From assembly GCF_030389965.1 (NCBI RefSeq), contig NZ_CP128399.1, positions 1,664,934-1,728,933 of the forward strand: a stretch of 64,000 nucleotides of DNA, written 5' to 3'. Shown here piece by piece: positions 2,632-63,266 of the stretch. Numbering within the stretch: position 1 is the first letter of the stretch; each line of letters begins with the position of its first letter. Origin of the DNA: Candidatus Chlorohelix allophototropha (GTDB taxonomy: Bacteria; Chloroflexota; Chloroflexia; Chloroheliales; Chloroheliaceae). Made by a program: the position numbers and the translations under genes. The notes under the pieces are model-generated. The model was not told where the DNA came from. It did no database searches and saw only the letters and a list, made by a program, of their open reading frames with translations.

Positions 2632-3459
2632 TTAAATACGTGATCCAGATGTTGCCCTGAACTTTGGCGCTGCCGTCGCGGCACTTTTCAAATTACGGCT
2701 CAAGAAAGTGGTTGTAATTTCGAAAGCTTCTTTAGCCGCCGCTGCATTATAAACAGTGGGGCGACTGTCATTGAAAAAGCCGTTGGGTACATTGGGATAG
2801 GTCTTCAACTGGTAAATTTTGTTGCGCGAACGAAGCTCATTTTCTAGTGCCCGCACGTCCTGCAGCGAAATGTCTTCTTCCGGCGCTCCGTAGAATGCTA
2901 GGTAAGGAGCTTGGATGAAAGGAACATAATTGATAGGAGATTCTGGCTTAACTCGGTTAATCAGATATTTTGAATAAATTAAATCTCCGTAGAAGTTAAC
3001 CGCTGCTGCGAAGTTCGAGGTTTGTCCTGCTGCCAGCGTGGCTATAGTGCCACCAAAGCCAAATCCAACAATTGCAATACGACCAGGATCGGCATAGCCT
3101 TCTCTGGTGACGTATTCAAAACCGCGTGTAATGTCACTGACTGCAATTAAATCGGAAGTTTTCCTACGAATATCTCGGCGTTGCTCATAGGTGGTAGTAG
3201 GACCGGGACCATTGTGACCTCTTTCCCCCATACCGCTTTTGTTTGAATAGAAATCGGGAACCAACACCGAATATCCAAGTTTAGCAAAACGAATTGCTAC
3301 ATCCTGAATGTGGTCATCAAGACCAAAAATATCATGCGCAATTATTATACCGGGCAAGGGACCGGGGAAGTTTGGTACTGCCAGAAAAGCGTTGGTTTCC
3401 TTGTGACCGGTACGATAGCGCAGAAAAGTTACATCCACGTAATTTTGGCTCGTACTCAT
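2632..3459 (-). CDS. Dienelactone-hydrolase-fold protein lacking the catalytic residues
   Basis: A 275-residue alpha/beta hydrolase of the dienelactone hydrolase family, recognised by PGIIIAHDIFGLDDHIQD, GYSVLVPDFYS and the C-terminal block FFNDSRPTVYNAAAAKEAF. In active members the nucleophile is the Cys of a G-[FY]-C-x-G-G motif; here the motif reads GFGFGGT, so residue 134 is Gly (codon GGC). The catalytic His, normally in a HGF or HAF motif before the ND, is Asn 226 (codon AAC), and the Glu partner of the nucleophile is Asp 43. No signal peptide is seen, so it is probably cytoplasmic. It is monocistronic with its own terminator. Function unknown; it could be a binding or regulatory pseudoenzyme, or use other residues. 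Confidence 0.85.
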   Translation of the reverse strand: MSTSQNYVDVTFLRYRTGHKETNAFLAVPNFPGPLPGIIIAHDIFGLDDHIQDVAIRFAKLGYSVLVPDFYSNKSGMGERGHNGPGPTTTYEQRRDIRRKTSDLIAVSDITRGFEYVTREGYADPGRIAIVGFGFGGTIATLAAGQTSNFAAAVNFYGDLIYSKYLINRVKPESPINYVPFIQAPYLAFYGAPEEDISLQDVRALENELRSRNKIYQLKTYPNVPNGFFNDSRPTVYNAAAAKEAFEITTTFLSRNLKSAATAAPKFRATSGSRI

Positions 3460-3782: not shown

Positions 3783-3811
3783 TTGTAAAGGCGATAGGTA
3801 GAAGGTATAAT
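3783..3811 (+). promoter_or_regulatory. Sigma70-type promoter for the gene at 3846
   Basis: TTGTAA (3783-3788), a 17-base spacer and a perfect TATAAT (3806-3811). Transcription should begin near 3818. The box overlaps the first in-frame ATG (3810), which argues that this ATG is not the start. Confidence 0.6.
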
Positions 3812-3845
3812 GATAAAGGGAATAACTTTCATGGAGAATTATGAA

Positions 3846-4184
3846 ATGTCTGATATAGTAGCTTTTTCGTTGGATTATATAGAACCTGAACCGGTTGATG
3901 ATACTCAAGCAAAGTTGTTGAATAATGCCCTTCGCCGCTTTTGTGACGAAGTTGTCATAGACGAAATTTCGGTAGATGAGGAAAAGAATGTCGCTACTCG
4001 AAAGGTAGTCTGGAAATACGGTTCGTACCAGTTTCGTGCCAAACTAATAACATTTGATGGGCAGGTTAGCATCGGGCAATTTGATTACTCCCCCAGAAGA
4101 GATTGGGCTGAATGGAATCGTCTAACTACTCCGCGTGCATTGGCTGAGAAACTTACCGAGGCAAAAGTAGTTAACCAAAAGTAA
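3846..4184 (+). CDS. Small acidic protein of unknown function
   Basis: About 112 residues, beginning MSDIVAFSLDYIEPEPVDD. I do not recognise a family. The composition is soluble and mixed charged, with a central segment (KVVWKYGSYQFRAKLITF) that looks like beta strands; there is no signal peptide or membrane segment. In-frame ATGs lie at 3810, 3831 and 3846. I prefer 3846 because GGAG is spaced nine bases before it and because the TATAAT box covers 3810; 3831 has an AAAGGG before it and remains possible. It ends 39 bases before the next gene. Confidence 0.6.
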   Translation: MSDIVAFSLDYIEPEPVDDTQAKLLNNALRRFCDEVVIDEISVDEEKNVATRKVVWKYGSYQFRAKLITFDGQVSIGQFDYSPRRDWAEWNRLTTPRALAEKLTEAKVVNQK

Positions 4185-4223: not shown

Positions 4224-5867
4224 TTGCTGAAAAACGCACAGAATAATAATTTAAATTCTTCTTCCCGGCGGCTGCCCTTTTATCTGGGCAGCCGTTTTGC
4301 GCTTCTATATCTCGTTTTAATCCTGCTTGGCTTCATAGCCTTTGTAATAGCGTTGCTTCCCCGCTTGGAATTTTTTAGCCAACAGGTACAGCGCTGGTTG
4401 AATTTCCAATATTTTCAAACCGGCTCAGAAGGCTTGATACTTAACGAGGTCACGCTTATTCGGGGTGGTGGTTCAATTTATGTTCCTCTAAGCGGTGACC
4501 AGTTTATCAGCGCGCCCTATCCGCCGCTTTATTACTACTTAGTTAACTGGTTATGGGCATCCGGCACTAACTATTCGACGGGCTTTGCTACCGGGCGCTT
4601 TGTATCTTTGCTTTCTGCCTTGCTGGTTGCCATAGGGATTGTACTACTGGTGGTTGCCGAAAATCGCACTTCGGGCGAGCGTGGTTATATGGTCGGTGCA
4701 ATAGGTGGTACGGTGGGCGGTTTGGTTTTTCTAAGTTTGCCTGCTGTGGCTATTTGGGCGGTCAGGGTACGCGCCGATATGCTGATGACCGCGTTTGGAA
4801 TAGTGGCGTTGGCATTGGTGGCATGGAAGCCAAGCGGTTGGGGTGCGTTTGTAGCAATACTCCCGCTTACCCTGGCGTTTTATACTAAACAGACTGCTTT
4901 GGCTGCTCCCGCTGCCAGTTTAGTTTACATAATATTATGCAATTGGCACAAACGCCGCTTGATTTTCTTTTGGATAGTCGGTTTTGCGGCAGCCTTGGGT
5001 ATTCCTTTTGTTGTCTTAAATTTTGCTACCGGACTGCAATTATATCGCCGCTTGTTCGAATACCACAATCTGCCTTGGAAGTTCGATAATTTTAAAACCT
5101 ACTTTGATTTATTTACCAGTGAAACCACCGCTTTGCTGATTACCGCGCTATGTTTGCTGGCGTTGGTGCTTGTTGGTTTGATAATAGATTGGCGCAATCA
5201 TACTGGTCGCCGCTTTGAAAAAATGATTTATTCTGCCAGAAATATCCCTTTGGTTGGCTGGTATCTACTTTTTTCAGCACCTTTATTGTTGGGAATGGGC
5301 GTTTCGGGGGCAGACCATAACCACTTTTTACCGGCTGAGGCAGCTCTTGCCGCTGGCGCCGGTCTCTTGCTGGCACGCTTGTTCGTCGCGCCGCTTGGTT
5401 TTGCACCGCGCTTAAAAACAATGATGCGCTGGCTGGCTTTACCTGCAATCGGGTTGCTTATATGGCAGGTGGGGGTGTTCTCTATCCCCTCTCAGCGTTA
5501 TGAAATTGAGCTGCGCTACCGCCCTGACGAAATTGCTGCGCTTGGTCGTGTCATTAATAATGCTACTGCTAACCCTAACCCTAATATTTTAACCAGTGAA
5601 GCAGGCTTTTTTGTGGTAACCGGAAAGCCTACTACCTATAACGATTTGTTTACCCTCTCCGCGCTAACAAAGCAGAATCTATATGATGAATCGCATCTAC
5701 TACAGCGGGTAAAAAATAAAGAGTTTGGCTTAATTCTCGCAAAAGACGATTTCTTTTCGCCCAGTTTTCGCACCGATGTTTGGTCAAAGGAATTGGCGGA
5801 TGTGATTCGCCAGAATTATTATTTAAAATTCCGCGACATTTGGTACACTTACGAACCCAAACCCTAG
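4224..5867 (+). CDS. GT39-like membrane glycosyltransferase
   Basis: A 547-residue polytopic membrane protein with about ten hydrophobic segments, beginning near residues 23-45. The segment APYPPLYYYLVNWLW after the first long loop and YTKQTALAAPAASLVY in the middle resemble the GT39/ArnT/PMT-like superfamily, which transfers sugars from polyprenyl-phosphate donors outside the membrane. The C-terminal 110 residues are a soluble domain. The start is TTG at 4224, since no ATG or GTG precedes the first membrane segment in frame. It converges on the lipoprotein gene at 5876 with only 8 bases between stops. Acceptor and donor cannot be told from sequence. Confidence 0.75.
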   Translation: MLKNAQNNNLNSSSRRLPFYLGSRFALLYLVLILLGFIAFVIALLPRLEFFSQQVQRWLNFQYFQTGSEGLILNEVTLIRGGGSIYVPLSGDQFISAPYPPLYYYLVNWLWASGTNYSTGFATGRFVSLLSALLVAIGIVLLVVAENRTSGERGYMVGAIGGTVGGLVFLSLPAVAIWAVRVRADMLMTAFGIVALALVAWKPSGWGAFVAILPLTLAFYTKQTALAAPAASLVYIILCNWHKRRLIFFWIVGFAAALGIPFVVLNFATGLQLYRRLFEYHNLPWKFDNFKTYFDLFTSETTALLITALCLLALVLVGLIIDWRNHTGRRFEKMIYSARNIPLVGWYLLFSAPLLLGMGVSGADHNHFLPAEAALAAGAGLLLARLFVAPLGFAPRLKTMMRWLALPAIGLLIWQVGVFSIPSQRYEIELRYRPDEIAALGRVINNATANPNPNILTSEAGFFVVTGKPTTYNDLFTLSALTKQNLYDESHLLQRVKNKEFGLILAKDDFFSPSFRTDVWSKELADVIRQNYYLKFRDIWYTYEPKP

Positions 5868-7713: not shown

Positions 7714-8028
7714 CTAAAACACCCTGACAATTTCGGTCTTGTAGTTGCCCAGAATACCATCTTTTAGATTTGCCTCAATCCAGTTGACTGCTTTGGCGAT
7801 AACCTCATCGGCATGTTTTGCGCTATTGCTAACATACGCTAGACCGATTTCGGCGTAATCCCATTCATCCAAACCGCCTACCTCTGCCACGCTCAGGTGC
7901 AACTCACGCTTGGCGCGTTCTATAATGGATTTAATCACATGGCGCTTATCTTTGAGTGATTCACAGTCAGGAATCTCAACTGAAAGCAGACATGTGCCTA
8001 TATACATGCTGGTATTGTCTTTACCCAT
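7714..8028 (-). CDS. DUF503 (YlxP-like) protein
   Basis: A 104-residue protein with the DUF503 signatures VEIPDCESLKDKRHVIKSII and AEVGGLDEWDYAEIGLAYVS. B. subtilis YlxP lies in the nusA-infB-rbfA region and is thought to act in ribosome or RNA metabolism; the function is not settled. Here it is placed between sugar permease genes and a binding-protein gene, away from infB. An alternative ATG at 8007 (protein starting MYIGTCLLSVEIP) would fit the usual family length better. Confidence 0.8.
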   Translation of the reverse strand: MGKDNTSMYIGTCLLSVEIPDCESLKDKRHVIKSIIERAKRELHLSVAEVGGLDEWDYAEIGLAYVSNSAKHADEVIAKAVNWIEANLKDGILGNYKTEIVRVF

Positions 8029-60669: not shown

Positions 60670-61491
60670 CTAAATGCGATTCCCAATGACCTGAAATACT
60701 GCTCTATCACCCATTGGTTTTGGAATTACGGTTTCAGGTTCGCATAACAGCGCGTTTGCTAGGTTCTCGTAAGGAGAGGTATCTATGCCTTCAAGCTCAA
60801 AAAGGGTTTTACCGCTTATACGACTGCGTCGAATGTGGTCTTCCGCGGGAACATAGCCCAACACTTGCGTGCCAACTTCACTGGCAAAGAGATCAATTAG
60901 CTCATGACCGCTCTCGCCGTTTCCGTTTGGATTTGCTAAAATGCGGTTACCAACCACGCCCGCCAGCCTAACTCTGTATTTGGCAGCTTTGGCTTTAACT
61001 GCTACGCAGATACGATTGGCGGCAAAGAGGCTATCAAAGTCATTGGCGGTTACAATAACGGCGTATTCTGCCCATTGCAAAGGGGTAGCGAAACCACCAC
61101 AAACGACATCACCTAACACGTCAAACAGGATGCAGTCGTAATTATCGTAAACACCCATGCGGTTGAGCATTTTCATGGTTTCGCCCACTACATACCCGCC
61201 ACAACCTACCCCGGCTGGCGGGCCTCCGGTTTCGACGGCAGCCACACCAAGATAGCCAGTTTTAATAATGTCGTCCGGCTCGACTTCCTCGGCGTGATAG
61301 TTTTTCTTCTCTAGGATGTCAATCACCGTATCAATCATGTGTCCGGTAATGGTGAAGGTGGAATCATGTTTGGGGTCACAGCCTATCAGCAAGACTTTCG
61401 CCCCCATTTTTGCCATTGCAACTGCCACATTTGATGAGGTAGTGCTTTTGCCGATGCCACCCTTTCCATAAAAAGCGTAAGCATGGTTCAT
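60670..61491 (-). CDS. bchL: Protochlorophyllide reductase iron-sulfur ATP-binding protein
   Basis: A 273-residue NifH-like protein: P-loop YGKGGIGKSTTSSN (9-17), the metal-cluster cysteines in GCGGYVVGETMK and LGDVVCGGFATPL, which bridge a [4Fe-4S] cluster between two subunits, and DPKHDSTFT (switch region). It is the ATP-driven electron donor of the dark-operative protochlorophyllide reductase. It supplies electrons to BchNB. It lacks a long N-terminal extension. AAAGGAG lies before the ATG; it is 95 bases behind bchB and the last gene before the terminator. Confidence 0.97.
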   Translation of the reverse strand: MNHAYAFYGKGGIGKSTTSSNVAVAMAKMGAKVLLIGCDPKHDSTFTITGHMIDTVIDILEKKNYHAEEVEPDDIIKTGYLGVAAVETGGPPAGVGCGGYVVGETMKMLNRMGVYDNYDCILFDVLGDVVCGGFATPLQWAEYAVIVTANDFDSLFAANRICVAVKAKAAKYRVRLAGVVGNRILANPNGNGESGHELIDLFASEVGTQVLGYVPAEDHIRRSRISGKTLFELEGIDTSPYENLANALLCEPETVIPKPMGDRAVFQVIGNRI

Positions 61492-61586: not shown

Positions 61587-63266
61587 TTATTGCTGGGCTT
61601 TTTCTCTGACTTCATATACAAGGTCTAGTGTGATAAGGCTGTAACCGTGCGAACGTGCATACTCCTCGACTCGTTTCTGGACTTTTGGTCTTACAAAGAA
61701 AGGTATTTGTTTCAAAGCTTTTTGAGCTTCGTCTGTCCAAACCAACTCAGCCGTGATTGCAGCAACTGGTGGCGCTTTGACCGCAACTGCTGCGCCGCTT
61801 TCTACCGCTAACTGGGTTGCTTTAGCGCGAAGTTCTTCCGCGATTTTATATGCTTCCAATTCCTGTTCGCGGGCTTCCGGTTCGGGGGCGACCTGAATTT
61901 TGCCCCGTTCATTCGCTTTGAGCCGGGCTTCTTCCACTCCAAGACCGGCATCGCCGAACATTTCAATCATGTGTTTTTCAAGACCTAACGTACAGGTGTG
62001 ATACACTCGATCGGTGATGAAGTTTGAGCCGTCATAGCCAAGGAAAGGCTGGTAACTCAGAGAGAAATCTTCTATATGAGTGGGATTGCTGATAGTGGCG
62101 CATGGTATATCAAATTCGGCGGAGGTATGCCGTTCCATCTGGGTTCCCATCACTATATCGGGCAGCGTTTCCCCAATTGCTTTGCGTACTTCGGCAAATT
62201 CACTGCTACAGATGATGTTATCTGTATAAGGTTTTACTAGCTCTCGAAATTCGTTGGCGAGTTTGCGATTATAGGTGCCTGCGCCGACTATTTGCATGTC
62301 TAGTTCGGTTGCCAGCATCCGGGTAATGGCGACTGCGTGCGTAAAGTCTCCAAAGACAAAAGCCTTCTTTGAACTGTAGCCCTGTACGTCGGCGGTGATG
62401 GTGAACCAAGGCAGCCCGCTGGGCGCGCTTTTCTGATCCATGGAAAAGGCGGCAATCGCCGGTTCTTTAAGGTCAAAAGTCAGCCCATTGCCGGAAGCGA
62501 ATTTGTTCAAGCTTTCTAGCACTTCGCGTACCCATTTGCGGGTGGCAACCACTCCGATAGGGGCACTAGTTACAGCGGGGATGTTGTGCATCTTTTCCAG
62601 CACAATTGCTGCATCTGCGCCCATCTCACGATAGGGTGCAATGGTTGCCCATGCCTGTGGCAGTTTCTTGATATCTGCTACGGTTGCGCCAAGTGGGAAG
62701 ACTACATTAACCGCAATTCCCATAGTTTCCAGCATGCGTTGGAGGCTAAGTAAGTCGTGTTTATGGTGGAAGCCCAACGAGATAGGTCCGATGATATTGA
62801 CGCTTGGTTTGGAAGTGGGCGGTAATTTCATAGCGGCAAATTGCTCAACCATTACGGTTAGCAAGCCGTTTGCCGATTCATCTTCCTCAACCCGGAAAGG
62901 GTTAGGGGCATATATCAAGACTTCGTTCGGAATATTCGCTTGGCGTGCCAATGACCCGTAATCTTCTTGTAGCAGGCTAGAAGAGCAGGTTTGTGTGACT
63001 ACTATGAGGTCAGGGTTGTGGTCGTGACTAACTTCCCGCAAGGATTCGGGCAGGCGGTTTATACCCATGCCCATTGTCTTAAGGTCGAGTACGCTGGTGT
63101 GAACAGGAGGGAAGCGTTTTTCACGCTCCATCATGGTAAACATCGAATTTATATAGCAATCGCCTACCGGAGAATAGGCTACGGCATGCACCCCGTTCAT
63201 ACTGCTTGCCACTCGCGCTACACCAGTGTGGGCGGTTCCCTGATATTCCCAAAAGCTCATTCGCAT
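61587..63266 (-). CDS. bchB: Protochlorophyllide reductase subunit B
   Basis: A 559-residue NifK-like catalytic subunit. Asp 36 in SPVGDCYINSM matches the Asp ligand (BchB-D36 in Rhodobacter) that, with three BchN cysteines, holds the unusual [4Fe-4S] NB cluster. ITADVQGYSSKKAFVFGDFT contains the later conserved Asp of the active site. The C-terminal 55 residues are the PCP_red domain (WTDEAQKALKQIPFFVRPKV). It reduces ring D of protochlorophyllide in the dark. AGGAGAATTAGCT precedes the ATG, inside the end of bchN; the genes are 2 bases apart and translated together. Confidence 0.97.
   Translation of the reverse strand: MRMSFWEYQGTAHTGVARVASSMNGVHAVAYSPVGDCYINSMFTMMEREKRFPPVHTSVLDLKTMGMGINRLPESLREVSHDHNPDLIVVTQTCSSSLLQEDYGSLARQANIPNEVLIYAPNPFRVEEDESANGLLTVMVEQFAAMKLPPTSKPSVNIIGPISLGFHHKHDLLSLQRMLETMGIAVNVVFPLGATVADIKKLPQAWATIAPYREMGADAAIVLEKMHNIPAVTSAPIGVVATRKWVREVLESLNKFASGNGLTFDLKEPAIAAFSMDQKSAPSGLPWFTITADVQGYSSKKAFVFGDFTHAVAITRMLATELDMQIVGAGTYNRKLANEFRELVKPYTDNIICSSEFAEVRKAIGETLPDIVMGTQMERHTSAEFDIPCATISNPTHIEDFSLSYQPFLGYDGSNFITDRVYHTCTLGLEKHMIEMFGDAGLGVEEARLKANERGKIQVAPEPEAREQELEAYKIAEELRAKATQLAVESGAAVAVKAPPVAAITAELVWTDEAQKALKQIPFFVRPKVQKRVEEYARSHGYSLITLDLVYEVREKAQQ

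Follow-up and report, generated by a model that had tools for sequence, protein, structure and literature searches.

A conserved dienelactone hydrolase-fold protein of 'Candidatus Chlorohelix allophototropha' that appears to have lost the catalytic residues of its family

Is a protein that has kept the fold of a dienelactone hydrolase (DLH) but lost the catalytic cysteine and histidine still an enzyme, or does its pocket serve another purpose? The question is raised by an ORF of 275 amino acids on the minus strand at 2632-3459 of the window, by which we mean the whole stretch of 64,000 nucleotides analysed here. The ORF begins with ATG and is free of internal stops. The host genome consists of 5 contigs with 6,086,194 bases in all, 2,961,161 of them on the window's contig. 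As given in part of PMC10972752, the genome of 'Ca. Chlorohelix allophototropha' L227-S17 comprises two chromosomes (2.96 and 2.45 Mb), a chromid of 375 kb and two plasmids (241 and 55 kb); neither 'dienelactone' nor 'hydrolase' occurs in the main text. The host, a member of the Chloroflexota that is phototrophic with a type-I reaction centre, was described only recently, and its lineage-specific genes are of interest. The window itself carries, at 60670-61491 and 61587-63266, two ORFs recognized by eye as BchL and BchB of bacteriochlorophyll synthesis, which fits a phototrophic host.

The window protein matches the DLH profile PF01738 with an E-value of 1.9e-42 and 145.8 bits (cut-off 21) between profile positions 2 and 215 of 217. 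Coverage is thus nearly end to end, and the statement in the initial annotation that the fold blocks are otherwise strong holds. Among solved DLHs the best phmmer match is 3f67 (E 3.5e-25). The best NCBIfam model is that of the YghX family hydrolases (NF041440), yet the score of 98.2 bits lies far under the cut-off of 460 and membership of this family was rejected. Four paralogues with both Cys and His (L002, L003, L004 and L005) are encoded in the same genome. One of them, L004, is 63% identical to its orthologue in locus L096 of G002, a genome from another genus of the same order; both carry YPDVRG at the place of the DLH glutamate, keep Cys and His, and make up a subgroup of their own among DLHs that look intact. 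Family models by themselves would label the window protein a dienelactone hydrolase.

The positions compared below are those which we take to hold, in DLH, the nucleophile, the catalytic His, the triad Asp and a Glu that pairs with the Cys. C123 and E36 are named in the PDB titles of DLH structures. An active DLH is expected to carry Cys or Ser in a G-x-C-x-G-G elbow, His in an HGF or HAF motif, and the triad Asp; the window protein has Gly134, Asn226 and Glu194 at these places. The motif coordinates, all on the minus strand, were computed from residue numbers. The nucleophile elbow reads GFGFGG (residues 132-137; 3049-3066), as placed by alignment and by the structure model, and the His loop reads PNGF (residues 225-228; 2776-2787), as placed by alignment. 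Gly134 falls opposite Cys or Ser and Asn226 opposite His without gap ambiguity, both in two MAFFT alignments and in phmmer alignments to four solved DLHs. Misalignment of the active-site columns is thereby rejected. With correct gapping, neither site receives a Cys, a Ser or a His. Among 56 other homologues, which are the best matches to the window protein and not a random sample, the nucleophile column holds C in 50, S in 4 and G in 2, and the His column H in 54, N in 1 and R in 1. The exceptions are the same two proteins in both columns: L007, which is the orthologue, and L055, a distant homologue (see below). Both losses named in the initial annotation, that of the nucleophile and that of the His, are therefore real replacements. 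The codons GGC (Gly134) and AAC (Asn226) each differ by a single base from one for Cys and one for His, respectively.

The triad acid, which did not figure in the earlier list of losses, is changed as well. Its place falls in APEEDI (residues 192-197; 2869-2886), part of a GAPEED motif that starts at residue 191; here the window protein has Glu194, and the 56 other homologues have D (52), P (3) or G (1, the orthologue). Glu194 might stand in for the triad Asp, in the window protein alone. The substitution at the Glu place is of another kind. Asp43, in the HDIFGL motif aligned with E36 (residues 42-47; 3319-3336), had been counted as part of the loss. This column holds E in 43 homologues, D in 7, H in 4, A in 1 and a gap in 1, so that Asp occurs in 7 of the 55 relatives with a letter there and must be regarded as an ordinary variant.

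The exchange of Cys for Gly removes the nucleophile and that of His for Asn the general base, and the triad acid is no longer kept. Sequence and established enzymology together therefore lead us to expect that DLH-type covalent hydrolysis cannot proceed, and the protein very probably does not catalyse it. Takeover of catalysis by another residue was considered and rejected. The window protein has no Cys at all, and the only His that it has in common with its orthologue is H42, a position that is His in 30 of the 56 relatives, mostly with intact triads, and hence is not specific. The protein would remain an enzyme if its pocket supported another mechanism that dispenses with Cys or Ser and with His, for instance that of a lyase, an isomerase or an acyl-transfer enzyme acting through H42, D43 and shared Tyr and Arg residues. 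The orthologue does keep H42-D43, Arg94, Arg98, Arg99, Tyr157, Tyr162 and Tyr190, and the part of PMC11878206 available to us describes carboxy lyases of this fold that use a D/E-H dyad without Ser, as well as CGI-58, which lacks the Ser. However, the dyad members named there retain the His that is lost here, the Cys is absent too, and H42 is shared with relatives whose triads are mostly intact. We hold this alternative to be distinctly unlikely, though chemistry of another kind might be sustained by Asn226 or by a base that is not typical of the family.

Does the protein still fold like a DLH? An AF2 model, built from a five-row alignment, has a mean pLDDT of 70.7 and a pTM of 0.76, with pLDDT below 50 at residues 1-4, 73-89, 160-177 and 260-275. 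Gly134 sits, elbow-like, between a strand (123-133) and a helix (135-146). The block 221-230, which includes Asn226, is weakly modelled, with a mean pLDDT of 60. Foldseek and VIA rank DLHs first among the matches listed, and the lists continue into other alpha/beta hydrolases; the best solved match is again 3f67 (TM 0.75/0.85, Z 27.7, rmsd 3.0 over 238 residues). The structure prediction thus bears out the proposed fold, as far as a predicted model can, and places Gly134 at the elbow. Taken together, the alignments, the AF2 model and the structure match describe an alpha/beta-hydrolase pseudoenzyme, with the fold kept and the catalytic residues lost.

The closest relative is the G002 protein L007 (264 aa), 46% identical to the window protein (120 of 261 aligned residues), and the two form a clade with support of 100/98. 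L007 carries GFGFGG, PNGF and HD, that is, the same Gly, Asn and Asp. The Gly and Asn, whose conservation in orthologues had been proposed as a check, are thus both kept in the sole orthologue found, at 46% identity and with saturated synonymous sites; two shared residues at this overall identity are not improbable by themselves, and their conservation is a single comparison. By the Nei-Gojobori method pS is 0.82 (saturated) and pN is 0.37, and the frame is lost in neither gene. The saturation of pS against a pN of 0.37 indicates that the protein is under constraint. On these sequence data the loss of the catalytic residues appears to be kept under selection, with one orthologue as the witness. 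The suggestion that the frame is intact and not decaying agrees with the 275 residues without internal stop and with the frame kept in the orthologue.

Could the constraint nevertheless be relaxed, with the gene on its way to decay? The identity of 46% is below that of the intact DLH orthologue pairs from the same two genomes (52.5% for L005, 63% for L004) and below that of rplM (68%), rpsI (79%), rplQ (70%) and TruA (64%), from which it follows that the window protein evolves somewhat faster than those. The gene is also missing from the order's remaining three genomes. Yet an alignment of 261 residues with 120 identities persists despite saturated synonymous sites, and Gly, Asn and Asp are identical in the two orthologues. 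We therefore give decay hardly any credence and consider that the gene has, in all likelihood, retained a function.

The distribution of the identities within the pair bears on what this function may be. Of five blocks tested, the elbow block 127-140 is the best kept, with 11 of 14 residues identical, as compared with 6/13 in block 38-50, 6/9 in 155-163, 6/13 in 186-198 and 7/12 in 219-230, and with 120/261 over the whole alignment. This is more readily understood as a kept pocket than as the mark of a structural or scaffold protein that uses the fold for protein-protein contacts and for which the pocket is irrelevant, although elbow glycines matter for the fold too. Precedents for a scaffold do exist. 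The inactive fold members Arb2 and DUF687 have partner-binding or scaffold roles, according to the portion of PMC11878206 consulted, and a possible further case is a DLH-like chain, 8g2z_3D (RIB26), which is part of a ciliary doublet microtubule structure; a literature search for RIB26 returned nothing. We regard a pure scaffold role as rather unlikely.

The distant relative L055, encoded in G357 (another family of the same phylum), has GFGMGG at the elbow and Arg at the His place but keeps the triad Asp. A family search of 29 genomes yielded 3 copies, all three with the Gly and the Arg; the other two are 70 and 78% identical to the query. In the tree L055 stands apart from the window protein; the deep branches are open and a single origin is compatible with the starred branches. 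We read the L055 branch as a probable separate loss of both residues, which points to a repeated origin of DLH pseudoenzymes within this widespread family. The branch is represented by loci L055 and L099 in G357, L098 and L100 in G350 and L101 in G171, three species in all. In the two surroundings that were read, the gene lies between ORFs named by eye as putative glucoamylase-like and protein-phosphatase-like, and these neighbours yielded no functional clue.

The gene itself is narrowly distributed. Matches at E 1e-27 or better occur in only 3 of the 158 genomes of the class, namely the window's genome, G002 and G036. The G036 protein (L008) has Cys and His, which leaves the dead gene in 2 of the 158, with no orthologue beyond L007. 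Nor did a search of 400 genomes of the phylum reveal any other; the best remaining match, L039, is 36% identical and has Cys and His. A scan of genome contigs with peptide patterns, suited to close relatives only, gave no orthologue and three distant Bacillota loci, and viral contigs gave none and one distant locus in all. The 287 plasmid records with distant relatives are all below 60% identity. Within the order the gene is present in 2 of 5 genomes, and these are the same two that have FmoA and CsmA matches. A species tree from rplQ, TruA, rplM and rpsI does not decide whether the two carriers are sisters (support 49); in this tree the TruA of G004 is split and the G004 row is partial. Shared ancestry could explain the co-occurrence with FmoA and CsmA, which is a lead from two genomes, without statistical weight. 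It is a long shot that this pseudo-hydrolase is confined to its lineage because of a link with phototrophy by a type-I reaction centre in the Chloroflexota, in which it may bind a ligand from the pigment pathway, a lipid or a carboxylate.

The gene stands alone, and the surrounding gene order is without counterpart in relatives. Its convergent neighbour is rpsI. The ORF list (limit 80 aa) has no minus-strand ORF between the gene and 5140; the minus-strand ORFs listed at 5140 and at 5650 both overlap a plus-strand ORF, 4224-5867. When four window proteins (the DLH-like protein, those of ORFs 3810 and 4224, and a solute-binding protein) were compared by BLAST, none was found near rpsI in G001, G002 or G003. 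A conserved neighbourhood was thus sought as a functional clue and found neither at the window locus nor at that of the G002 orthologue. There, L007 lies between a large putative FtsK-like ORF and a putative glycine dehydrogenase subunit ORF, both named by eye. Beside the gene in the window, ORFs 3810-4184 and 4224-5867 have no Pfam match at E 0.001, and the latter, judged by eye, resembles a membrane glycosyltransferase; further on, 7714-8028 encodes a DUF503 protein (E 8.3e-28) between transport genes. The gene had also been credited with its own terminator. A terminator-like hairpin of 11 pairs with a T-rich tail does lie downstream on the gene's strand (2593-2564), by pattern match only; the region has 2 such sites where shuffled sequence has 1.3 on average, so that the hairpin is weak on its own.

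We conclude that the window protein is likely a conserved pseudo-hydrolase, having the DLH fold without DLH chemistry and a pocket that now binds a ligand or a partner. Of the earlier proposal of a pseudoenzyme with a binding or regulatory function, the first half is upheld by Gly134 and Asn226 and their retention in the orthologue, while the second is still what we infer: the function is probably ligand or partner binding, and the chances that it is a pocket-based ligand or regulatory role are about even. What the old active-site pocket binds would be either a partner protein or a small molecule, the latter perhaps a lactone-like compound or an organic acid. The protein would then serve for sensing, transport or regulation, and in the last case its target may be one of the four intact DLH paralogues that the cell also has. 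In the phmmer alignment Arg94, Arg98 and Arg99 fall in a stretch aligned with a segment of Pseudomonas DLH that presumably lines the pocket. They would suit an anionic ligand, a weak hint from the alignment. The protein makes a clear case for asking what a pocket serves once catalysis is lost.

How does the window protein compare with known systems? With the DLH family (PF01738; 3f67, 4zv9, Pseudomonas DLH 1zi6 and 1din) it shares the fold and sequence over the full length, elbow and His-loop blocks included. Unlike that family it is without the catalytic Cys and His and does not hold the triad acid, and its stretches at about 77-90 and 160-177 are longer than in most relatives. Our literature search found no paper joining 'dienelactone hydrolase' with 'pseudoenzyme', and those joining it with 'catalytically inactive' concern other subjects, to go by their titles and the start of their abstracts. 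The kind is known, in that fold members without the triad are on record, and a conserved dead member of the DLH family was not found in print by this search. Among the alpha/beta-hydrolase-fold proteins without a working triad, PMC11878206, in the part seen, names Arb2, DUF687 and CGI-58. Like the window protein, CGI-58, the Arb2 domain and DUF687 retain the fold and have lost catalytic residues, and partner-binding or scaffold roles are given there for some of them; they differ from it in sequence family, host and domain context.
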